Assembly (NCBI GenBank): GCA_025774615.1
Contig: JALGVQ010000017.1
Span: forward strand, 1 to 30,520
DNA length: 30,520 nt
Source: a bacterium
GTDB lineage: Bacteria > Blakebacterota > Blakebacteria > Blakebacterales > Blakebacteraceae
Reading direction: 5' to 3'
Shown here: positions 1-26,549 of the stretch, in pieces
Layout: each line of letters starts with the position of its first letter
Numbering within the stretch: the stretch's first letter is position 1
Notes under the pieces: generated by a model
The model's input: the letters and a program-made list of their open reading frames with translations, nothing else
Databases searched by the model: none
What the model was told of the DNA's origin: nothing
Program-made: the position numbers and the translations under genes

Positions 1-833
1 GGGTTGAGCGGTCAAGGAGTCTGAGCGATCTGGAGTCGGCCAAGACGGAACTGGAGCGCCGCCGGTATGTCTTCAACCGAACCATGGGACTGCCTATCGA
101 GACGGTGGTCTGGGTGCAATCGGCGCTCGAGTACGAACCGATCGCAGTCGATCAGGCCCTGGCACTCGAACGAGCCCGACAAAATCGCTCCGATGTGCGT
201 CAGGCGGAGATACAGCTTGAGCGGGACGAACTTCAGTTGAAGGAGACCAGGAGTCAGGGCAAACCCGACCTGGCGCTCTCTGCTTCATACGCGCTTACCG
301 GGAATTCCAATCTCGGTGCGCTCGGGTATGACGATTCCTGGGGGGACCATCTGAGCGCTTCACTCAATGCCGACAACAGAAGTCCCTTCACGAACATCCA
401 GATGACCCTCTCGTTGCCCATCTTCGACTGGGGACTCAATGCCTCGAGGGTCGAGAGACAGGTCGCAGTGATACAGGAACAGGAGCGACGTATCGCCGAG
501 GTCGAGGCTGATCTTGCCGTCACCGTGATCAATTCCATCAGAGCGGTCGAGGGCGCCATGCGGCAGATGGAGATCCTGGAGGAACAGCTGCAGATTGCCC
601 AGACGAGCTACCAGATCAGCCAGCAGCAGTATGGGCGAGGCAATATAACCCTGACCGAACTGCTCCGGGCGCAGGATGACTGGAACACTACCCAGGACCG
701 GCATCTACAGGCGATGATCGATTACGAACTGGCCAAGGCCGATCTGAAAGAGATCACCATGTGGGACTTGGAGACGAACCAGCCGGTAACCCAGCAGACC
801 ACACCGCCCGTTCCGTTCGGAAAGAACGGTTGA
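1..833 (+). CDS. TolC-like outer membrane efflux protein, 3' part only
   Basis: This is the C-terminal part of an outer membrane efflux protein (OEP/TolC family), the exit duct of a tripartite pump. The reading frame is open from base 3 with no stop, so the gene begins before the window and the first internal ATG (84) is not its start. About 276 residues are visible. They show the family pattern: long heptad-rich helices (residues such as ALALERARQNRSDVRQAEIQ), a beta-strand block ending in LSLPIFDWG (the typical P-[IL]-[FY]-[DN]-x-G hairpin of OEP repeats), then a second pair of helices with the YxxGxxxLxELLxAQ signature (YGRGNITLTELLRAQ). The gene is followed after 65 nt by a membrane-fusion protein and two RND permeases, which fixes its role as the outer membrane partner of that pump. 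The substrate cannot be read from the sequence. Confidence 0.9.
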   Translation, partial: VERSRSLSDLESAKTELERRRYVFNRTMGLPIETVVWVQSALEYEPIAVDQALALERARQNRSDVRQAEIQLERDELQLKETRSQGKPDLALSASYALTGNSNLGALGYDDSWGDHLSASLNADNRSPFTNIQMTLSLPIFDWGLNASRVERQVAVIQEQERRIAEVEADLAVTVINSIRAVEGAMRQMEILEEQLQIAQTSYQISQQQYGRGNITLTELLRAQDDWNTTQDRHLQAMIDYELAKADLKEITMWDLETNQPVTQQTTPPVPFGKNG

Positions 834-898
834 GTCGGACATGAGGACCACGGACTTTGCGACATCTATTGTGAGATCGAACCAGGAAAGGAATACCG

Positions 899-2251
899 AT
901 GGCACTGCGTGCTAAATCGCTTCTGAAGTTCCTCTTCATCATTGTGATCCTCGGTGGAGTTGGAACCGCGGTATATCTGCGTATACAGAAGGAGAAGGCG
1001 GAGGAGACCGATGGGAGCTCCACAGATGCGGCCCAGGTCACTGCGGGCGACAGGGACGCGGCCGTCGAGGGGCTCTTCCGCGGCATCGATCCGCTTCCGG
1101 TCAGGGCCACTCCGACTGTTCACGGGATCCTGGTGCAGACCGTCCACGCTGAGGGACGGGCACAGCCGTTGCGTCGGGTCGATGTGGTGAGCCAGGTCAG
1201 CGGAATCCTGAACAGACTCCGGGTCAAAGAGGGCGACTATATACGGGCCGGTCAGATCCTGATGGATCTGGACCAGGTAGAGTATCAACTGGCCCTGGAA
1301 AACGCGCGCGCTGACTATCTGCGGTCACAGGCCGACTATGCCGCAAATTACGAGGAGCGGGATACGGTGGAGCGTGAGGGGCTCCAGGTGCCTCAACCAA
1401 CCATGGACCCACAGGCCTACGCCGAAGTGGAGCGACGATTCCAGCAGGCAGAACGCCAGCTCCAGAACAACCAGATGAGCAAAGAGGAATTTGACAGCAT
1501 CGAACTCGAATACATGACGGCACGCATTCTGGCCGGCTATGAACGGGGCAACATCCAGCAGGCTGAACTCACCCGTTCGCGCATCACTCTGCAGAGGGCA
1601 CAACGAGATCTCGATCTGACAATGGTGAAGGCTCCCTTTTCCGGCTGGGTTGCAGACATGCAGGTTGCCGAAGGGCAGTACATCGGCGGCAGTACACCGC
1701 TGCTGACTCTGCTCGACCTGAGCCGCATTCGGGTCGTTGTCGATGTACTCGAGAGCGAGATCGCGCCATTGAGGTCGGGGCGGAGGGCGGAAGTGACATT
1801 CACCGCTCTGAAGGGTGAGACGTTCGAGGGGATAGTGATCTCAGTCAATCCCATCATCAACTCTCAAACCAGGACCGGCAAGGTTCGGCTGGAACTGGAT
1901 AATCCCGAAGGGCGCATTACCGCGGGAATGTTCGCGCGAGCACGGATCTTTTCGCGCGACATCGAGGACGTCCTGATGGTTCCCCACGAATCGATCGTGG
2001 AGAGAGATGACCGGACTCTCGTCTTTGCGGTCGTGGAATCGGAGGACGAAGATTCCCCCGATATCGTCAAGTGGCGGTACGTGATTCTGGGCGAATCGAA
2101 CGACACCCACGTCATCGTGCTTCCCACCGATGATCCACACGCAGGTGTGAGCGATGGGATGCTGGTGTGCATCGAAGGACATGTGAGCCTTCAGCATGAT
2201 TCACCGGTGGTGCTGACTGAAGTCGTACCCCCGGACATTATCACCCCGTAG
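899..2251 (+). CDS. RND efflux periplasmic adaptor (membrane fusion protein, HlyD/AcrA family)
   Basis: The 450-residue adaptor links the inner-membrane RND permeases to the TolC-like duct. The start is ATG 899, preceded by AGGAAAGGA. Residues about 8-27 form a single N-terminal membrane anchor; there is no lipobox, so it is anchored by this helix rather than by a lipid. A polar linker of about 40 residues follows. The first half of the lipoyl (biotinyl-like) domain is visible as VVSQVSGILNRLRVKEGDYI with GQILMDLD after it. A long coiled-coil hairpin (about residues 125-240, rich in E, Q and R) follows, then the second lipoyl half (VKAPFSGWVADMQVAEGQYI), and beta-barrel and membrane-proximal domains ending near TAGMFARARIF. 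The hairpin is longer than in many adaptors, with an extra region around QVPQPTMDPQAYAEVERRFQ. It stands in an operon between the TolC-like gene and the first permease. Confidence 0.93.
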   Translation: MALRAKSLLKFLFIIVILGGVGTAVYLRIQKEKAEETDGSSTDAAQVTAGDRDAAVEGLFRGIDPLPVRATPTVHGILVQTVHAEGRAQPLRRVDVVSQVSGILNRLRVKEGDYIRAGQILMDLDQVEYQLALENARADYLRSQADYAANYEERDTVEREGLQVPQPTMDPQAYAEVERRFQQAERQLQNNQMSKEEFDSIELEYMTARILAGYERGNIQQAELTRSRITLQRAQRDLDLTMVKAPFSGWVADMQVAEGQYIGGSTPLLTLLDLSRIRVVVDVLESEIAPLRSGRRAEVTFTALKGETFEGIVISVNPIINSQTRTGKVRLELDNPEGRITAGMFARARIFSRDIEDVLMVPHESIVERDDRTLVFAVVESEDEDSPDIVKWRYVILGESNDTHVIVLPTDDPHAGVSDGMLVCIEGHVSLQHDSPVVLTEVVPPDIITP

Positions 2252-2268
2252 CCGATCGCGGAGGCATC

Positions 2269-5200
2269 GTGCACGTATCCGAACTGTCGATAAAGCGCCC
2301 GGTCGCCACCACGATGTTCTACCTGGCGGTGGTGCTGATCGGAATAATCAGCTTCAGCCGGCTCGCGGTAGATCTCTTCCCCAGCCTTCAGTTCCCCCGG
2401 CTGGTTATCTGGACCACGTATACAAACGTTTCGCCCGAGGAAGTCGAGCAGTTCATCTCTGAACCGATCGAATCGCAGGTGATGCAGGTTGCAGGGATCC
2501 GTGAGGTGCACAGTGTCTCGCGGGAGGGCGTGAGCCTGGTGACGCTCGAATTCAACTGGGATGCGGACATGGAGTACGCGATGCTCAATGTCCGGGAGAA
2601 GCTGGATATCCTCAGGAACTCGTTGCCCGACCTTGCCGGTCGCCCCACGATCCTGAAGGCCGATCCGAATGCCGAACCGATCATGAGCCTGGCAGTGTCG
2701 GGGCGGGGAGGTCTGGCTGAGATAAAGGGGCTGGCCGAGAATGTGGTGAAGCGTCGCCTCGAACAGATAGACGGTGTAGCGCTTGCAGCGGTGACTGGCG
2801 GCAGCGACCGGCAGATCAGAGTGGAAGTCGACAGGGAGGTCGTCGAGTCACTCGGTATCACCCTGCAACAGATCCAATCGGCATTGGCCCAGGCTAATGC
2901 CGTTTCGACCGGGGGGAACATAAACCGGGGCCGGTTCCAGTGGTATCTGCGACCGGTGGGAGATTTCCAATCGGTCGATGACATTGAACGAGTAGTCGTG
3001 GCCCGCCGTGGAGAACGGCTGGTGACTGTGGCCGACGTGGGTGTGGTAGTTGACGGATTTCGGGATAGGGACAACCTCACCCGATTCAACGGCGCCGAAT
3101 CGATAGGTATCCTGCTGCAGAAGGAAGCAGGGAGCAACACGAGCCAGGTCTCATCCCGCGTCCATGAAGTGCTCGCCGAACTGGAGGAGGAGTACTCCGG
3201 GCTCACGGTTGCGGTGGCATTCGATCAGGCTGACTTCGTCAACAGCAGCATCTCGAACGTCATCTGGGCGATCGGGCTCGGCGGTCTCTTCGCCTTTCTG
3301 ATCCTCTTCTTCTTCCTGCATGATATCCGGAATCCACTGAATATCGGTCTGTCGATTCCCATCTCGGTCATCGCCACCTTTGCGCTCCTCTACTTCTCCG
3401 GCATCACACTGAACATGATGAGCCTTGGCGGACTCGCCCTCGGTGTCGGATTGCTGGTGGATAACTCGATCGTCGTGCTCGAGAACATATTCCGCCATCG
3501 CGAAATGGGAGAGGACCGGTTCGAGGCGGCCAGCAATGGGGCACGTGAAGTCGCGATGGCCGTGACGGCATCGACGTTCACTACTATCAGCGTCTTCCTG
3601 CCGATCCTCTTCATCGAAGGAGTGGCCGGTCAGCTATTCCGGGACCAGGCCCTGACCGTTACCTTCAGCCTGCTCTGCTCGCTGGTAGTATCGCTCACCA
3701 TCCTGCCGATGCTCGCGAGCCGCTTCCTTCATATGGACTCCTTTATCAAGGAGAAGGAAGAAGCAGAACGTGCTCTGGCTGAAGCAGCGGGAACGGGGGG
3801 TGATGAAGGCGATTCGTCCTCACCATTCACAGAGCCGTACAGACCGCCAGGGGCACTGAAGAAGATCCTGCTTGTTGTGATATGGCCGTTCCGGAAACTC
3901 TTCACTCTGCTCTGGTGGCTCCTGCGAATGATCGTCAAAGGCGCGGGTGCCCTCTTCAGAGCGATCAAGCGGGTATCGGTGAAACTCCTGCGCGGGATAT
4001 CGAATGCCACCAGGACGGTTACCAGACCGCTCTTTGTGTTGTTCGACGCATCCTTCGATCGCTTTTCCCGATTCTATCACAAGGTTCTGGAACTCTCGCT
4101 GGACAACCGGGGCACGGTTGTGGCGATTGCGGTCGTCCTGGTTGCTGCCGCCATATGGATCGGAGTGGGCCTCGACAAGCGGCTCATCCCTGAGGTCGAT
4201 CAGGGGGAGTTCAGCATAGACATGGTGCTTCCTCCCGGTACGAATCTCGAGACGACAGCCGCTGTTGCCGGACAGATGGAAGAGTGGCTTCTCGAAATGC
4301 CCGAGGTGGAACACGTTTTCATGAATGCCGGTCTGGTAAAGAGTGAGAGTGCGCTCGGCAGTCAGGACTCAGACATAAATACCGCCTCGATCAGGGTGCG
4401 CCTCCACCGTCGGATCCACCGATCGACATTCGACGTCATTGCCGAGCTGAGACAGCGGGGCAGGGAGCTGTATGGAGCGGAACTTACCTTCAACGCGGGT
4501 GAGACGACATTCAGCGAGATACTCGGAACCAGTCAGGCTGATCTGGCGGTGAAGGTGCGGGGACTGCGCCTCGACACCCTACAGGTGATTGTCAACAGGG
4601 TAGAGGAACGCATGCGGGGTGTTGAGGGTCTGCGGGACATCCATATCGACTTTGCTATCGGCAAGCCGGAGATAAGACTATCGGTTGATCACCGGGCGAT
4701 CGAGCAGTTCGGTCTGTCGGTAACTGACGTGGTCAATCTGGTAAAATCGACTATCCAGGGAGAGGTGGCGACCGATTTTCAGGACTTCGACCGAAAGGTT
4801 GAGATCCTTGTTCGGGAGGGGGACAGCCGGGAGAAGACACTGCAGGAGATACTGAACCTGGGAATCCCGGTCGGAGGACAGGGGGGGAGCGAATTCAGGG
4901 TACCGTTACGAGAGGTTGTGGAGTGGAGTTACACCACCGGGGCGAATGAAGTCAGACGCGAATCACAGAACCGTCAGATAACGGCCTTTGCCAGTGTTGA
5001 GGGACGCCGTCTGGATGACGCCATCGCTGAGGTTGAACTGCTCATGTATGATTTGCCGCTCCCCGACGGATATGAGGTGGTTGTCGGGGGGGTCAATGAG
5101 GAGATGAGAAGGTCGTTCCGCAGCCTCGCCTTTGCTCTATTGATGGCCGTTCTGCTCGTATACATGATCCTTGCCGCGCAGTTCGAGAGTCCGCTCCACC

Positions 5201-5679
5201 CATTCACGATCATGGCCACGGTCCCCCTGGCGGCAATCGGGGTTGTCTTCGGACTCAAGTTCTTCGGGGCCGGCATCAACATCATGAGCCTGGTGGGCAT
5301 GGTCGTGCTCACTGGAATCGTGGTGAATGACGGCATCATCAAGGTCGACTTCATCAATCAGCTCCGTGCCAAGGGACGACCCCTGCGTGTGGCGATCGTG
5401 GAGGCCGGGCACTACCGGCTCCGTCCGGTGCTCATGACGACGGTTACGACGATACTCGGTCTCACTCCCATGGCCATGGGGATCGGTGCCGGGGCTGAAT
5501 TGAGGAGTCCGCTGGCCATTGCCGTGATCGGCGGGGAATTCTCGGCGACGGCCCTTACCCTTATCGTGATCCCGGTCGTCTACTCCCTGATCGAGAGCCT
5601 GCGGGGAAACAAACTTGGCAGCAGGGCGGAGTCGTTCAATCCTGAGGTTGGTGGGACGCAACCTGAGGTGGCGCTGTGA
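2269..5679 (+). CDS. RND efflux permease 1 (AcrB/MdtB-like, HAE-1 type) with a long central insert
   Basis: This is an inner-membrane proton-driven exporter of 1136 residues. The start is GTG 2269, preceded by GGAGG at a good distance; the product begins MHVSELSIKRPVATTM, the standard cytoplasmic start before TM1. The two repeats of the family are clear: TM1, periplasmic porter loop, TM2-6, then TM7, second porter loop, TM8-12. The TM4 proton-relay motif is VDNSIVVLEN (D398, N399), as in many MdtB-like and environmental HAE-1 pumps rather than the AcrB Asp-Asp pair. TM10 carries VVNDGIIKVDFINQLR. The protein is about 90 residues longer than AcrB (around 1050). The extra length lies between TM6 and TM7 (about residues 490-600): an acidic low-complexity stretch followed by a very hydrophobic and basic segment containing KKILLVVIWPFRKLFTLLWW. 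The last codons overlap permease 2 by 4 nt. Confidence 0.95.
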   Translation: MHVSELSIKRPVATTMFYLAVVLIGIISFSRLAVDLFPSLQFPRLVIWTTYTNVSPEEVEQFISEPIESQVMQVAGIREVHSVSREGVSLVTLEFNWDADMEYAMLNVREKLDILRNSLPDLAGRPTILKADPNAEPIMSLAVSGRGGLAEIKGLAENVVKRRLEQIDGVALAAVTGGSDRQIRVEVDREVVESLGITLQQIQSALAQANAVSTGGNINRGRFQWYLRPVGDFQSVDDIERVVVARRGERLVTVADVGVVVDGFRDRDNLTRFNGAESIGILLQKEAGSNTSQVSSRVHEVLAELEEEYSGLTVAVAFDQADFVNSSISNVIWAIGLGGLFAFLILFFFLHDIRNPLNIGLSIPISVIATFALLYFSGITLNMMSLGGLALGVGLLVDNSIVVLENIFRHREMGEDRFEAASNGAREVAMAVTASTFTTISVFLPILFIEGVAGQLFRDQALTVTFSLLCSLVVSLTILPMLASRFLHMDSFIKEKEEAERALAEAAGTGGDEGDSSSPFTEPYRPPGALKKILLVVIWPFRKLFTLLWWLLRMIVKGAGALFRAIKRVSVKLLRGISNATRTVTRPLFVLFDASFDRFSRFYHKVLELSLDNRGTVVAIAVVLVAAAIWIGVGLDKRLIPEVDQGEFSIDMVLPPGTNLETTAAVAGQMEEWLLEMPEVEHVFMNAGLVKSESALGSQDSDINTASIRVRLHRRIHRSTFDVIAELRQRGRELYGAELTFNAGETTFSEILGTSQADLAVKVRGLRLDTLQVIVNRVEERMRGVEGLRDIHIDFAIGKPEIRLSVDHRAIEQFGLSVTDVVNLVKSTIQGEVATDFQDFDRKVEILVREGDSREKTLQEILNLGIPVGGQGGSEFRVPLREVVEWSYTTGANEVRRESQNRQITAFASVEGRRLDDAIAEVELLMYDLPLPDGYEVVVGGVNEEMRRSFRSLAFALLMAVLLVYMILAAQFESPLHPFTIMATVPLAAIGVVFGLKFFGAGINIMSLVGMVVLTGIVVNDGIIKVDFINQLRAKGRPLRVAIVEAGHYRLRPVLMTTVTTILGLTPMAMGIGAGAELRSPLAIAVIGGEFSATALTLIVIPVVYSLIESLRGNKLGSRAESFNPEVGGTQPEVAL

Positions 5680-8600
5680 AACAGTCCCCCCTCACAGATA
5701 TGTGCCTGAAGAGGCCTGTTACCACCACGATGATCTTCATGGCGCTGATCGTTCTGGGGGTGGCTTCGCTGCTGTCGATCCCACTCGAGACCTACCCTAC
5801 GCTGAACATTCCGCGGATGAACATTACCGCAAGCTGGTCCGAAACAAGCCCTGAGGCGATCGAGGCATTTGTTACCGCACCGCTTGAGGCTGAGGCGAGT
5901 ACCCTTCGTGGTATCGAGAAGGTCGAGAGTATTTCGACAAGGGGCAGTTGCAGGATATCGCTCGAATTTGCACCTGATACCGACATGGATTTCACCCGGC
6001 TGGAGCTGAATGAGAAGATCTCCAGGTTGCGTGAAAACCTGCCCCGGCAGGTCTATATCAACGTTTCCCAGTACGTGCCGGCGGCGGTTCAGCGGCAAAC
6101 CGATTTTCTCCTCCGATACACGCTCAGCGGTTTCTACAACGTCAACGAACTTCAGAGATTTGGTGAGGATCTTATAGAGCGGCCGCTCATGACGGTGGCG
6201 GGTGTCGCGGATGTCATGGTCGCAGGTGGAGAGATGCGTCAGCTCCGGGTGGTGCTGGACGAGAACAAGGTTGAGTCGCTCTACATCAATCCAGACCAGG
6301 TGGCCCGGCAGCTGAGCCAGATCCAGAACATCGTGACGACCGTCGGTACCGTGTATGAGGGAACCGACCAGTTCAATCTGGTTGTCCGGGATGATTTCGA
6401 CGAAGTCGAGACTCTGCGTGATGTCATTGTTGCTCAGAGGGGGGAACGGTTCATCCGGCTTGGCGAGATCGCAATGATTGTGGATGGGTACGCCACGCCG
6501 CGAGGATATCAGCGCCTGAACGGCAACGCCCGTGTATCGGTTACGGTCAACGCAGTCTCTGGCAGCAACATCATAGATGTCGCAGAGCGGGCGAAGGCCA
6601 GGATAGAGGAGATTCGCGAGACGCTGCCCCCCGGTATCCAGTTGATCGAAGAGATGGACCAGAGTGAGACGATCCGCAACGAACTTGAAGGGCTCGAGTT
6701 CCGGAGCATCATCATCATCTTCCTTATTTTCGCGGTGCTCCTGGTCTTCCTGCGGGGTATAGCCAATCCCATTATCATCCTCTCCAGCATTGCCACGAGT
6801 GTACTTCTGACTATCAGCATCTTCTATTTCACGGGAGCCTCCCTCAATATGATGACACTGGCCGGGCTCGCGATGGGGCTCGGCATGATGGTCGACAACT
6901 CGATCGTGGTGCTCGACAATATCCACCGCCACCGGGAACGGGGAAGCGGGAGGCTCATGGCCTCAAGCCTTGGTACCGCCCAGATGATGCTGCCGGTCCT
7001 GGCTGGAACCGCCACTACTATCATCGTTTTCCTGCCCTTTCTCTATCTGCAGGGTGAACTCAGGGTTCTCTACGTTCCATTTGCGATGGCGGTTGTCGTA
7101 AGCCTCGCCTGTTCACTTCTGGTCTCATTTACCCTGATCCCGAGTCTGGCGGCGCGTGCCCTTGGCACGATCAACGGAAACGGGAAGGATGGTGGTTCCG
7201 GACAGGCCTCAGAAGATCCGTGGACCGAGGGCGAACTTGAAAAGGAAGAGGCTGCGGCAAAGGCCGGGGGTGCCGAACATACCCTGAAACTGGGCGACAA
7301 CATCTATCAGCGGTTATTACGGAGCATGCTCAAACACAGGGTATTGGTGTTGATTACCGTGGTACTCGCTTTTGCCGGCTCGGTTTACGTCTTCGACCGG
7401 TACGTCACGAAGGGTCGTATATGGAGCTTCGGAGGCAATCAGACTGAGTATCTCTCGATATACATCTCCGCGCCGACCGGATCGGACCTCGAGGTGATGG
7501 AGACCCTGGTCGACCAGTTCGAGTCGAAACTGGTTCCCCTTTATAAAGCAGGACAGGTGGAGGATTTCGTCACCAGTATCTCTGCGCAGAGCTCGAACAT
7601 CAGGATCAGCTTTCCCGAGGAAGTTGAACGGCAGGGGTTCCCCTATCTGGTAAAAGACCAGCTGTCGGTCTTTGCCAGTCTGATGGGTGGGGTTCGTATC
7701 ACCATCAGTGGCTTCGGTGACTACTTCGCGACCGGTGGATTCGGTGGGACCAGCTACAGCTCACGTATCTCGCTGCTTGGTTATAATTATCTCAAGGTCA
7801 AGGAGATCGCTGAGGACCTCGGCGATCGACTGATGCGAAATCCCCGGATACGGGATATCGATACCAACTATGGCGGTTTTGGAGGAGGGGGGCGTGAAAA
7901 ACAGATCATCATCCGGTTCGATCGGGATGCCCTGGCCGAATACGGTCTCACGTCTCAGCAGATGGTCGGATTTGTTACCCGGTACGTCAGAAGTTCCTCA
8001 GGAGGCACGGTCACCTACGGTGGAGAAGACATATCCTTCAGCGTCAAGGTTCACGGATTCGATCAACGGGACATCATTGAACTTGAGAATGCGATGGTCA
8101 CCACCCCTTCATTCAACCGGGTACGGATGCGCGATGTCAGCGAGATCTCGGTCGAAAAGGTGATGGACAGAATCGAGCGGAAGGACCAGCAGTACACCCG
8201 TACCGTAGCGTATGAGTTCCGCGGTCCCTACCGGATGGGTGAGCGGGTACGTGAAGAGATCATGGACACCATGATCCTGCCCAACGGCTATGAATTCGAT
8301 GAGAGTGAGCGCATATGGCAGAGTGAGGAGGATCGCAAACAACTCGAGCTGGTGCTGGCGTTCGCTGTGCTGCTCGTCTACATCCTGACCTCATCACTCT
8401 ATGAGTCTTTCTTCCACCCCTTCACGATTATCCTGACTGTCCCCCTGGCCATGATGGGCGTCTTCCTCGGCTACTGGTTCTTTGACAAAGGATTCGATCA
8501 GTCAGCATATGTCGGGGTGGTGCTGATGGGGGGGATCGTAGTGAACAACTCGATCATCCTGGTCGACCATATAAACCACCTGCGCAGCTTCCTGCCGAGA

Positions 8601-8906
8601 CGTGAAGCAGTCGTGCGCGCGGCGCGTGAACGGGCCCGTCCGATCATCATGACCACCTTTACCACGGTAATCGGTCTTATGCCCCTGCTCATAGGTGCTC
8701 AGGAAGGGCAGGACATGTGGTACACGCTGGCATTCACGATCTGTATCGCTCTGCCGGTGGCAACGTTCTTTACACTGACAATCATCCCGATCGTCTATGA
8801 ATTGATTGACAGTCTTCAGAACCGCTTCAGGCGGGGAATGGGCGCTCTGGCAATCTCGATGCGGGAAGAGGTGCCGACATCAGCAGGCGAACCACACCAA
8901 CAGTAG
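5676..8906 (+). CDS. RND efflux permease 2, partner of permease 1
   Basis: This second RND permease has 1076 residues. It starts at GTG 5676 inside the end of permease 1 (GTGA overlap), with GAGGTGG just upstream, so translation is probably coupled. The product begins MKQSPLTDMCLKRPVTTTM and has the 12-TM duplicated architecture. The TM4 motif is VDNSIVVLDNIHRHRE (D407) and TM10 has GGIVVNNSIILVDHINHL. The TM6-TM7 linker is shorter than in permease 1 and acidic. The second porter loop is rich in glycine (ATGGFGG, GGFGGGGR). The sequences of the two permeases differ throughout, so this is not a recent duplication. Two unlike permeases behind a single adaptor resemble MdtABC of E. coli, whose MdtB and MdtC form a mixed trimer; a heteromeric pump is therefore the likely state, by inference. 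Confidence 0.95.
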   Translation: MKQSPLTDMCLKRPVTTTMIFMALIVLGVASLLSIPLETYPTLNIPRMNITASWSETSPEAIEAFVTAPLEAEASTLRGIEKVESISTRGSCRISLEFAPDTDMDFTRLELNEKISRLRENLPRQVYINVSQYVPAAVQRQTDFLLRYTLSGFYNVNELQRFGEDLIERPLMTVAGVADVMVAGGEMRQLRVVLDENKVESLYINPDQVARQLSQIQNIVTTVGTVYEGTDQFNLVVRDDFDEVETLRDVIVAQRGERFIRLGEIAMIVDGYATPRGYQRLNGNARVSVTVNAVSGSNIIDVAERAKARIEEIRETLPPGIQLIEEMDQSETIRNELEGLEFRSIIIIFLIFAVLLVFLRGIANPIIILSSIATSVLLTISIFYFTGASLNMMTLAGLAMGLGMMVDNSIVVLDNIHRHRERGSGRLMASSLGTAQMMLPVLAGTATTIIVFLPFLYLQGELRVLYVPFAMAVVVSLACSLLVSFTLIPSLAARALGTINGNGKDGGSGQASEDPWTEGELEKEEAAAKAGGAEHTLKLGDNIYQRLLRSMLKHRVLVLITVVLAFAGSVYVFDRYVTKGRIWSFGGNQTEYLSIYISAPTGSDLEVMETLVDQFESKLVPLYKAGQVEDFVTSISAQSSNIRISFPEEVERQGFPYLVKDQLSVFASLMGGVRITISGFGDYFATGGFGGTSYSSRISLLGYNYLKVKEIAEDLGDRLMRNPRIRDIDTNYGGFGGGGREKQIIIRFDRDALAEYGLTSQQMVGFVTRYVRSSSGGTVTYGGEDISFSVKVHGFDQRDIIELENAMVTTPSFNRVRMRDVSEISVEKVMDRIERKDQQYTRTVAYEFRGPYRMGERVREEIMDTMILPNGYEFDESERIWQSEEDRKQLELVLAFAVLLVYILTSSLYESFFHPFTIILTVPLAMMGVFLGYWFFDKGFDQSAYVGVVLMGGIVVNNSIILVDHINHLRSFLPRREAVVRAARERARPIIMTTFTTVIGLMPLLIGAQEGQDMWYTLAFTICIALPVATFFTLTIIPIVYELIDSLQNRFRRGMGALAISMREEVPTSAGEPHQQ

Positions 8907-16292: not shown

Positions 16293-16356
16293 AGTAATAA
16301 TAATGAAAATGGCGTATGTGTGCCATCGAACCAAATTGAGCTGGAGGAGAGTATTC

Positions 16357-16971
16357 ATGAGTGAATCCCCGATCGGGCTGAATCTCGGAGCGCCCGTTCC
16401 CGATTTCGAGATCACCACCTATGAGCCGACAGAGAAGGGCTTCGGGACCTTCTCACTGGCCGACCAGAAGGAGAAGGGACGCTGGACGGTCCTGTTTTTC
16501 TATCGGGCAGATTTCACCTTCGTCTGAGCGACCGAGTTCGCTGCTCTGGCAGAGCAGCATTCGCGGTTCGAGAAAATGGGATGTGATATCGTCACGATCA
16601 GCCCTGACACAGAATTCGTGCATCTGGCCTGGCAGGCGAGTGAACGCGAACTGGCCGATGTGAAGTACTCCATGGGGGCAGATCCGACCGGTTTTCTTCA
16701 CCGTATGTTCGGCGTCTATCTTGAAGATTCCGGCCTTGGCGCCAGGGGAACATTCATCATCAACCCCGATGGCGTGTTGATGAACACCGAAGTCAACCAC
16801 CACAATATCGGTCGGAACATCGATGAGCTGATGAGGAAGTTCAAGGCGAACATCTACCTCTCGAAGAAGACGAGCGAGGCATGTCCCTCGAAATGGAAGG
16901 ATGAGGGGGATGTGACTCTGCAGCCGGGAGCCGAGATGGTCGGGAAGGTATACGAGGCCCTCAACCAGTAG
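16357..16971 (+). CDS. Selenocysteine-containing peroxiredoxin (AhpC/Prx1 type), UGA at 16525-16527 read as Sec57
   Basis: This is a thiol/selenol peroxidase that would reduce peroxides. The gene is one frame interrupted by a single UGA: 56 codons from ATG 16357 (GGAGGAG 7 nt upstream), then UGA, then 147 codons to a TAG stop, 204 residues in all. Around the UGA the protein reads ADFTFV-U-ATEFAALAEQ, which matches the AhpC active site DFTFVCPTEL, so Sec57 sits exactly at the peroxidatic Cys; the usual Pro after it is Ala. Thr54 (T-x-x-C position) and Arg130 (GARGTFIINPDG) complete the catalytic set. The C-terminal resolving Cys is present as ACPSKW (Cys176), so a selenenylsulfide Sec57-Cys176 is expected. 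Downstream of UGA the sequence is fully conserved in character, which argues against a decayed gene. A SECIS-like hairpin follows at 16540-16558 and a terminator at 17003-17034, so the gene is monocistronic. Genes for SelA, SelB, SelD and tRNA-Sec are not in this window and should be elsewhere. Length and motifs place it with typical 2-Cys enzymes; the reducing partner is unknown. Confidence 0.9.
16531..16567 (+). promoter_or_regulatory. Bacterial SECIS element for Sec57
   Basis: A perfect hairpin GCTGCTCTGGCAGAGCAGC lies at 16540-16558: eight base pairs closing a GGC loop, or seven closing TGGCA. It begins 12 nt after the UGA, and the loop begins 20 nt after it. Known bacterial SECIS elements stand in this position just 3' of UGA, with a G near the start of the apical loop; in E. 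coli fdhF the upper stem begins about 11 nt after UGA. A lower helix ACCG (16531-16534) with CGGT (16564-16567) extends the structure across an internal loop. The element lies inside codons for FAALAEQ, so it is constrained both as RNA and as protein. Unlike fdhF, no bulged U is seen. Confidence 0.85.
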
Positions 16972-17002
16972 TCGTTACCAGATTTCATCTGATCAGTTTT
17001 CG

Positions 17003-17034
17003 CCCCCGACGGCTTGCGCTGTCGGGGGTTTTTT
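17003..17034 (+). terminator. Rho-independent terminator after the peroxiredoxin gene
   Basis: CCCCCGACGGC (17003-17013) pairs with GCTGTCGGGGG (17018-17028) across a TTGC loop, with one G-T pair, and six T follow at 17029-17034. It stands about 30 nt after the TAG stop at 16971 and isolates the peroxiredoxin gene from the SGNH lipoprotein gene. Confidence 0.92.
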
Positions 17035-17152
17035 GTTGCAGATGACCCAAAATGCAGTGCCAGCACGGAATTAACGGCGACGGGTAGTAAACAGCGGCAG
17101 GCAGATCGAGTCTTACCGTCAGAATGGACCACCACCCGACTGGTCAGAACTG

Positions 17153-23609: not shown

Positions 23610-24560
23610 ATGGGCCTGTCGCTGAGGGAACACGTCGCAGCATTCTCGGAATACCTGGTCCAGATACGCGCCCTTTCTCCTCATACCGTAACCGCTTACT
23701 CGAAAGACATCCGTCAGTTCGCTGCCTGGATGCAGTCAACTGAGGGAAGAGAATTCCTTCCTGAGGAGATCGATCACACACTGCTGCGTTCCTTCCTGGG
23801 GATGCTGCGTCGACGCGGCTACTCGTCGGGAACCGTTGCGCGTAAACTTGCCAGCCTGAGGGCGTTCTTCCGGTACCTGGAGCAGACCGGCGTGATCGAC
23901 GTGGATCCCTCAGCGCTGTTGCGTTCACCGAAAACCCCTCAGAGACTGCCCATCTTCTTCAGCCGTGAAGAGATGATCTCCGCCCTGGTTGCGCCTCAGG
24001 GGGATTCATTTCAGGCCGTCAGGGATCGAGCCATGCTCGAATTCTTCTACAGTACGGGGGTACGACTCTCCGAACTCACCGGACTCGACCTGCCTGACAT
24101 CGATCTCAGGGATTGTTCGGCCCGGGTGAGGGGAAAGGGGCGTAAGGAACGGATCGTGCTGCTGGGCAGACCTGCTCTGGATGCTTTGAAAGATTATCTG
24201 AAAACCCGGGCAGAATTGATCCGTAAGAAGGAGAGGACCGATGAGCAGGCTCTCTGGCTCAACCGCTCCGGTACAAGACTGAGTGGCCGGAGTATCCAGA
24301 AGATGGTCCGCCGGTATCTCAGGCTGGTGAGCGACCGGGAGAAGGTGAGTCCGCACGTGATCCGGCATACATTCGCCACGCACCTGCTTGATGCCGGAGC
24401 CGATCTGCGGGCAGTTCAGGAACTACTTGGTCACGAGAGCCTCTCGACAACCCAAGTGTATACTCACCTGACGACAGACCGACTGAAACAGGTGTATCGA
24501 CAGGCCCACCCACGGGCCGAAGAAGAGTATCGACCGAAGGAAGCCAGTGATGAAGAGTGA
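23610..24560 (+). CDS. xerC: Tyrosine recombinase XerC/XerD
   Basis: This 316-residue recombinase resolves chromosome dimers at dif with a Xer partner. The N-terminal SAM-like core-binding domain ([20 protein letters not shown]) is followed by the catalytic domain. The residues are all present: Arg152 (STGVRLSEL), Lys176 (GKGRKERIV), His249 and Arg252 ([16 protein letters not shown]), His275 ([13 protein letters not shown]) and Tyr284 as nucleophile. The length and absence of extra domains fit a chromosomal Xer, not an integron or phage integrase. I call it xerC from its position between topA and hslV; the choice between XerC and XerD cannot be settled from one copy. Its end overlaps hslV by 11 nt. 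Confidence 0.93.
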
Positions 24561-25116
24561 GACAAGAAAAGTGCGATCGACGACCATTATCGGGATCGTG
24601 AAGGAAGGCCGCGCAGCCCTCGGAGGCGACGGCCAGGTCACGTTCGATAACACGATCATGAAGCACGGCAGTACCAAGATCCGGAGTCTGTTCGACGGTT
24701 CAGTGATCGCTGGATTCGCCGGTGCGGCTGCCGATGCGCTCACGCTCTTCGAGCGGTTCGAGGAGAAGCTTGAGATGCAGAAAGGCAATCTTCAGAGGGC
24801 TGTTGTGGAGCTGGCCAAGGAGTGGCGAACCGACCGTTACCTCCGGCGCCTGGAGGCCCTTCTTGTCTGCCTCAATACTGAGAACGCGTTCATCATCTCA
24901 GGTAACGGGGACATCATCGAGCCTGATGACGGGATCGTGGCGATCGGGTCGGGGAGCAGCTATGCACTTGCGGCTGCCAGAGCCTTCATCAAGGCAGATG
25001 CGCAGAAAGATCTGCGGATGATTGTCGAGGACTCGATGCAGATAGCATCACAGATCTGTCCCTATACAAACGATCACATCTCATTGATGGTGCTCCCGGA
25101 AGAAGGGGATGAATGA
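24550..25116 (+). CDS. hslV: ATP-dependent protease peptidase subunit HslV
   Basis: HslV is the threonine peptidase of the HslUV (ClpYQ) protease. I choose ATG 24550 (188 residues), because GAAGGA lies 7-8 nt before it; GTG 24547 is only 3 nt upstream and fits the ribosome site less well, and GTG 24571 is also possible. The mature enzyme should begin at Thr11 in STTIIGI, so a propeptide of about 10 residues is removed. The sequence [59 protein letters not shown] and [15 protein letters not shown] is typical of the family. It overlaps xerC upstream and hslU downstream (ATGA), so the two subunits should be made in step. Confidence 0.97.
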
Positions 25117-26549
25117 GCGTGCGGAAAAGCGGAGCGAGCGAACTGACACCGAAGCAGATCGTGGAACAGCTCAACCGGTTCGTCATCGGGCAGGATGACG
25201 CGAAACGGGCGGTGGCGATCGCGTTGCGCAACCGGTGGCGACGTCTCCAGGTGCCGGAAGATCTGAGAGAGGAGATCGTTCCGAACAACATCATCCTGAT
25301 AGGTCCGACCGGAGTGGGCAAGACGGAGATATCCAGAAGGCTCGCTCTGCTCGCGAAAGCCCCCTTCCTGAAGATAGAGGCAAGCAAGTTCACCGAGGTA
25401 GGGTATGTAGGACGTGACGTGGAGTCGATCATCCGCGACCTGACCGACCTGGCGGTGGACATGGTCAAATCAGAGTTCCTTGCGGATGTTCAGGAATCTG
25501 CCGCCCGTCATGCCGAAGAGCGGTTGCTGGATCTGCTTCTGCCCAGGAGACCATCGGTCGCCGCCCAATCTCCGTTCTCTGTCGAACCGGTCGCTGTGAC
25601 AGGAGAGGATGTAGTCGCTGTTGATCAGCAGCAGAAGGAGCAACAGCAGGAGGATTCATGGGAGCGAACACGGGATAAACTGCGCAGTCAGCTTGTCGCA
25701 GGCACGCTCGATGATCGGGAGGTCGAGATCGACATGCCGGCCGATCAGCATCCGATGGTCTCGGTGCTGGGGCCGGTCGGCCTCGAGGAGATGGGAGTGA
25801 ACCTCTCAGACCTTTTCTCAAACATCATGCCGCAGAAGAGCAAACGGCGTCGCGTGCAGGTCAGTGAAGCGCTCAAGCTTCTCCAGCAGGAGGAGGCCTC
25901 GAAACTGATCGATATGGACAAAGTCATCACTGAGGCCCTCACGCGGGTCCAGCAGAACGGGATCGTCTTTCTCGATGAGCTCGACAAGGTGGCAGCTGCC
26001 GATCGCGGCTCAGAATACGGCGGACCCGATGTGAGCAGGGAAGGGGTCCAGCGCGATCTCCTGCCGATTGTGGAAGGGAGTACGGTTACCACCAAGTACG
26101 GGATGGTGAAAACCGACCACATTCTCTTTATCGCAGCGGGTGCATTCCACGTTGCCAAACCGAGCGACCTGATTCCCGAACTCCAGGGGCGGTTCCCGAT
26201 CCGGGTGGAATTGAAAAGCCTGACGACCGAAGACTTCGTACGCATCCTGACAGAACCAGAGAATGCCCTCATCAAACAGTACACGGCACTGCTGGCCACC
26301 GAGGGTGTAACGCTCACATTCAAAAAGAACGCGATCAATGAGATAGCCGGAGCAGCGAGTCTCGCCAACGAACAGGCCGAGGACATTGGAGCGCGGCGAC
26401 TGCACACCATCCTTACCCTCCTGCTTGAGAGCATCCTCTTCGAGGTACCCGAAAGCAGGCAGAAGGAATACGTGATCGATCAGCAGAACGTCCGCGAGCG
26501 ACTCGATGATATCATCGCGGATGAGGACCTGAGCAGGTATATCCTCTGA
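25113..26549 (+). CDS. hslU: ATPase subunit HslU of the HslUV protease
   Basis: HslU is the hexameric AAA+ unfoldase that feeds proteins to HslV. The 478-residue protein begins at ATG 25113 inside the hslV end. Walker A is GPTGVGKT (residues 64-71); Walker B is [10 protein letters not shown] (Asp288, Glu289). The [16 protein letters not shown] pore and sensor region is present, as is the C-terminal DEDLSRYIL, the conserved tail that inserts into HslV. The I-domain between the Walkers is longer than in E. coli HslU (443 residues): an extra glutamine-rich stretch ([10 protein letters not shown]) is near residue 175. The last codons are duplicated immediately after the stop (see 26520-26575). 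Confidence 0.98.

Follow-up and report, generated by a model that had tools for sequence, protein, structure and literature searches.

Peroxiredoxins that carry selenocysteine (Sec) in place of the peroxidatic Cys are already known, as the preliminary description of this DNA acknowledged. The reference family is PrxU, captured by the NCBIfam equivalog model NF040737 and named after the Eubacterium acidaminophilum enzyme. The Cys-containing counterpart is AhpC, captured by the equivalog TIGR03137 and exemplified by Salmonella AhpC (structures 1n8j and 4ma9). Sec peroxiredoxins with a TxxU active site are a known and abundant group that has appeared in surveys since 2005, with 43 sequences reported from the Sargasso Sea (PMC1088965), 253 from the GOS (PMC2398784) and 91 from 5,200 genomes (PMC5029168). 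The TxxU selenoproteins from marine metagenomes (PMC1088965, PMC2398784) share the PF00578 domain and the TxxU site with the protein described here, and some of them may belong to the same clade.

The window, which is the whole 30,520-nucleotide stretch of DNA that was analysed, contains a gene that encodes a 204-residue protein when TGA is read as Sec, with a single internal TGA at codon 57 (Table 1). The Pfam AhpC-TSA (PF00578) match spans the TGA join (9e-32), and phmmer places residue 57 of the joined product opposite the peroxidatic Cys of Salmonella AhpC; translation, Pfam and phmmer thus agree with the preliminary description, which had placed a single TGA at the peroxidatic position of an AhpC/Prx1-type product. 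As had also been described, topA, xerC, hslV and hslU end in TGA as a normal stop, and so do several further genes in the window; the peroxiredoxin gene itself ends in TAG. UGA is therefore not globally reassigned. Automated annotation had been expected to split or truncate the gene, and a gene caller run without recoding does return only a 131-aa ORF, from the ATG at 16576 to 16971. Taken together, there is very little doubt that the gene encodes a 2-Cys-type peroxiredoxin (Sec plus Cys) in which UGA57 would be read as Sec by means of a SECIS element, and that it represents an AhpC/Prx1-type Sec lineage, most likely separate from PrxU.

Table 1. Features of the peroxiredoxin gene and its immediate surroundings (positions in the window).
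Feature	Position	Strand	Remarks
Shine-Dalgarno-like GGAGGAG before ATG 16357	16343..16349	+	read directly; GAGGAGA conserved in G001
Sec-containing AhpC/Prx1-type peroxiredoxin gene	16357..16971	+	204 aa, stop TAG; translation with TGA as U
Arg50 (CGG), replacing the motif Pro of PxxxTxxC/U	16504..16506	+	Arg also in G001 (CGT); Pro in the remaining orthologues with sequence there
Thr54, catalytic triad	16516..16518	+	invariant in alignment A1
In-frame TGA, predicted Sec57, peroxidatic residue	16525..16527	+	TGA in all 27 close Sec orthologues, TGC in the 7 Cys ones; aligns with the peroxidatic Cys in solved AhpC structures
Ala58 after Sec (Pro in most AhpC)	16528..16530	+	Ala in all 27 Sec and all 7 Cys orthologues
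Bacterial SECIS hairpin, GCUGCUCU-GGC-AGAGCAGC	16540..16558	+	perfect 8 bp; starts 12 nt after TGA; apical loop 20 nt after UGA
Arg130, catalytic triad	16744..16746	+	invariant in alignment A1
Cys176, C-terminal resolving Cys (CPSKW)	16882..16884	+	conserved in all 27 Sec and all 7 Cys orthologues
Intrinsic terminator closely following the gene (12-bp hairpin with T run)	17002..17036	+	-25.5 kcal/mol, z -5.6

The window protein resembles PrxU in its AhpC/Prx1-type fold, its TxxU site, its peroxidatic Sec and the position of its SECIS element just after the UGA. It differs in scoring well below the PrxU cut-off (173.7 bits against 270), in falling into a separate clade, in the GGC loop of its SECIS element and in keeping the resolving Cys. 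It also stays under the cut-off of the AhpC equivalog (181.1 bits against 272). A second Sec peroxiredoxin is encoded elsewhere in the window genome (G000:C72:5759-6337, L049), with the active-site sequence PGDFTFV-U-ATEVSAV; this paralogue belongs to the PrxU family (395.5 bits for NF040737) and has Thr at the resolving-Cys position (ATPSGW). Retention of that Cys had been put forward as a novelty of the window protein, a suggestion that does not hold, as the PrxU-type Sec relatives L025, L028, L031 and L033 also retain a C-terminal Cys-Pro.

Given that both proteins are AhpC/Prx1-type with TxxU, and that NF040737 does match the window protein at 173.7 bits, the protein could be regarded as just another PrxU, descended with it from one ancestral Sec peroxiredoxin and separated from it by Cys forms that are reversions. 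This is unlikely, with the score far under the cut-off that the paralogue from the same genome clears easily. The case for a separate origin depends on a tree with 61 sequences, in which Cys forms separate the clade of the window protein from that of PrxU; placement of all Sec sequences in one clade was rejected on this tree (p = 2.9e-14), and a Sec-only clade among the kin of the window protein was not (p = 0.22). The SECIS loops also differ, being GGC in the window clade and GGUC in the PrxU group. The simplest and most likely history suggested by these sequences is that the window Sec clade arose separately from PrxU, by a Cys-to-Sec change of its own. Ancestral Sec followed by repeated Sec-to-Cys losses, though not impossible, would be less parsimonious.

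With Salmonella AhpC and the TIGR03137 family, the window protein shares the fold, the catalytic triad and the C-terminal resolving Cys, and differs from them in having Sec for the peroxidatic Cys, Ala for the Pro that follows and Arg50 for the motif Pro, and in being accompanied by no AhpF scoring over the cut-off. An AF2 model built from the alignment (pLDDT 93.2) has Salmonella AhpC among its best solved-structure matches (TM 0.85 by query and 0.93 by target, rmsd 1.4), so that both an AhpC-TSA domain and an AhpC fold are present. The active-site helix of the model begins at residue 57 (DSSP helix 57-73), as expected of a peroxidatic residue. Cys176, followed by Pro177, occupies the position of the C-terminal resolving Cys of typical 2-Cys (AhpC/Prx1) enzymes. 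The residues F48, Y49, D52 and T54 before the TGA, and T59 and E60 after it, are invariant, and alignment with the orthologues confirmed the preliminary observation that Thr54, Arg130 and Cys176 are intact.

For decoding, SelB with Sec-tRNA(Sec) would bind to the GGC-loop hairpin behind the UGA and bring about insertion of Sec. By homology, a catalytic cycle can be proposed in which the selenolate of Sec57, with Thr54 and Arg130 activating it, would reduce peroxide to water, and in which Cys176 from the partner subunit would resolve the resulting selenenic acid through a Se-S bond. The enzyme would then be re-reduced by thioredoxin and thioredoxin reductase. Thioredoxin is the likely reductant because the AhpF profile gave nothing over its cut-off in the window genome, which does encode a CATC thioredoxin reductase of the ordinary kind (C48). 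The C48 match includes one TGA and was also considered as a possible Sec thioredoxin reductase; this candidate was rejected, the protein being the ordinary CATC enzyme and the TGA its terminator.

The preliminary description missed Arg50. Where the other orthologues keep PxxxTxxU, the Sec version of the PxxxTxxC motif, the window protein has RxxxTxxU; the motif Pro is otherwise retained throughout the alignment. The substitution is shared with G001, a genome of the same genus, and is encoded there by CGT rather than CGG; as the same residue is specified by different codons, Arg50 is probably kept by selection. Since a near-invariant motif residue is broken, the activity of the window enzyme could be altered. 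In one alternative UGA does specify Sec, and the Arg50 enzyme has shifted from peroxide reduction to another role, as a redox sensor, a chaperone or an enzyme acting on another substrate. The probable selection on Arg50 in both genomes of the genus speaks in favour of such a shift, which is nonetheless quite improbable with Thr54, Sec57, Arg130, Cys176 and the fold all intact. A broader proposal can be advanced only tentatively, namely that the protein belongs to a second, independently arisen Sec subfamily of AhpC with a near-frozen SECIS element, in which Sec relaxed the PxxxTxxC rule and so permitted a Pro-to-Arg change in this genus that altered its behaviour towards peroxide or oxidation. 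The residue on the other side of the active site, Ala58, was considered as a Sec-specific trait and rejected, as it is common to all seven Cys orthologues and is thus a trait of the clade; its occurrence in several PrxU members as well removes the novelty that had been claimed for it.

The window genome contains the complete set of genes expected of a host of bacterial selenoproteins. The tRNA-Sec scores over its cut-off (66 bits) and is called SeC with anticodon tca by ARAGORN, selB (about 640 aa) is likewise over its cut-off, and selA and selD are matched at 509 and 351 bits. The absence of selB and tRNA-Sec, which the preliminary description had named as evidence that would count against Sec, is therefore not what was found. 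The selD gene of this genome (L056 1483-1560, G000:C273) is itself that of a selenoprotein, with a single in-frame TGA in the customary CGU site (VTCAGUASKLG).

Orthologues were collected from 84,980 species genomes searched with a peptide pattern, from 392 genomes of the Planctomycetota (the phylum of one match) and from 386 genomes spread around that of the window. The close set comprises 27 non-redundant Sec orthologues, the window included and each from a different genome, alongside seven Cys orthologues. Codon 57 is TGA in all 27 of the former, each of which also has Thr54, Ala58, Arg130 and Cys176, and TGC in all of the latter, so that the alignment of the read-through product that had been suggested as a check shows an in-frame UGA aligned with the redox Cys of homologues, as expected of a bacterial selenoprotein. 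The more distant orthologues L112-L114 (60-66% identity) also have TGA, and in G001, where the gene is divided between two contigs, each piece includes the TGA. As the window genome is a fragmented MAG (3.3 Mb in 324 contigs, 82% complete), one might suspect the TGA of having come from an error in sequencing or assembly, or from a recent nonsense mutation (TGC or TGT to TGA) in the gene of an ordinary Cys peroxiredoxin. There is next to no chance of this, with TGA in every close orthologue, the downstream frame intact and a SECIS element with compensatory changes following the codon; moreover, the genome of L112 is a single contig with a completeness rating of 100%, and assembly error is therefore no general explanation.

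Most genomes with a Cys orthologue have kept tRNA-Sec, and most of the Cys states are therefore not explained by loss of the Sec machinery; in G212 the tRNA-Sec match is weak and selA is missing, and in G161 both are missing. Two Cys orthologues, L093 (G263) and L097 (G224), fall inside the Sec clade with weak support, in genomes that keep tRNA-Sec, and are candidate Sec-to-Cys reversions. The Sec clade looks to be centred on the Planctomycetota. Horizontal transfer of the gene is possible because the nearest relatives of the window protein fall outside its phylum, which is represented by four genomes in the set searched; tree support near the window protein is weak.

Bacterial SECIS elements have been described as having a 3-9 nt loop with G in one of the first two positions, a 4-16 bp stem, a distance of 16-37 nt from the UGA and an MFE of at most -7.5 (PMC13188914). 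The hairpin behind codon 57 lies within these limits in its GGC loop, its stem and its distance from the UGA, and its folding energy is -11.7 kcal/mol alone and -20.6 kcal/mol in context. Folded alone, the region is only moderately better than shuffled sequences (z -1.8 to -2.3), and it is comparison that is decisive in indicating that the element is under selection. The stem codons GCT GCT CTG GCA GAG CAG are fixed across the 27 Sec orthologues with the exception of one GCG; of the Ala codons elsewhere in these genes, 3.1% are GCT and 5.5% GCA, and the commonest codon averages 73% at well-conserved columns. The seven Cys orthologues use different codons and the hairpin is missing from them. 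In L113 and L114 two stem pairs have changed in a compensatory manner (U-A to C-G and C-G to A-U) with the GGC loop unaltered, and over 14 sequences 100% of cells are paired, against at most 62% in slid controls. On this comparative evidence the insertion of Sec at codon 57 is very strongly supported, and sequencing error, a pseudogene and a plain stop were all rejected in view of the conserved TGA, the SECIS covariation and the Sec machinery. An ATG-started ORF does exist downstream, yet termination at the UGA to give a short N-terminal peptide, with re-initiation at ATG 16576, has a negligible probability, since neither the N-terminal strands nor the catalytic residue would be part of the 131-aa product, conservation extends to both sides of the TGA, and the genome encodes the Sec machinery.

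The reading of the gene as that of a Sec peroxiredoxin, as first proposed, is thus borne out by the machinery, the conserved UGA, the SECIS element and the resolving Cys; the novelty suggested for it was overstated, the TxxU group being known. The apparent novelty lies in a second Sec clade within AhpC, which Cys forms set apart from PrxU and which scores under the cut-offs of both curated models. In the open-access literature on AhpC selenoproteins and Planctomycetes Sec peroxiredoxins, which is the scope of this statement, no description of the clade, of its SECIS element or of the Arg50 variant was found. The clade adds a coherent Sec lineage to the main bacterial family of peroxide-removing enzymes, and because both curated models that were tested score it under their cut-offs, annotation will probably treat its genes as fragments or pseudogenes. 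Its close Sec and Cys members, in genomes that mostly still have Sec genes, lend themselves to a clean comparison of what a peroxiredoxin gains from Sec, and a SECIS element fixed by rare codons and showing compensatory changes is well suited to tests of how SelB recognises the GGC triloop.

With regard to genomic context, the peroxiredoxin gene looks like a stand-alone gene, because the neighbourhoods in the window and in four relatives (L006-L009) share no conserved redox partner; an amidohydrolase gene adjoins it in L008 and L009 only. Comparison with G001 for an upstream regulatory site yielded none, the upstream DNA being alignable only near the ribosome-binding site, and Rfam gave nothing over cut-off in the window, the weak matches near the terminator (E 0.46-3.9) being taken as chance. 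Elsewhere in the window, positions 84-8906 hold genes for an outer-membrane factor, a HlyD-type adaptor and two tandem RND pumps, forming a tripartite efflux cluster that has a pair of pump subunits. At 23610-26549, downstream of topA, the genes xerC, hslV and hslU follow one another with overlapping ends at both the xerC/hslV and hslV/hslU junctions.
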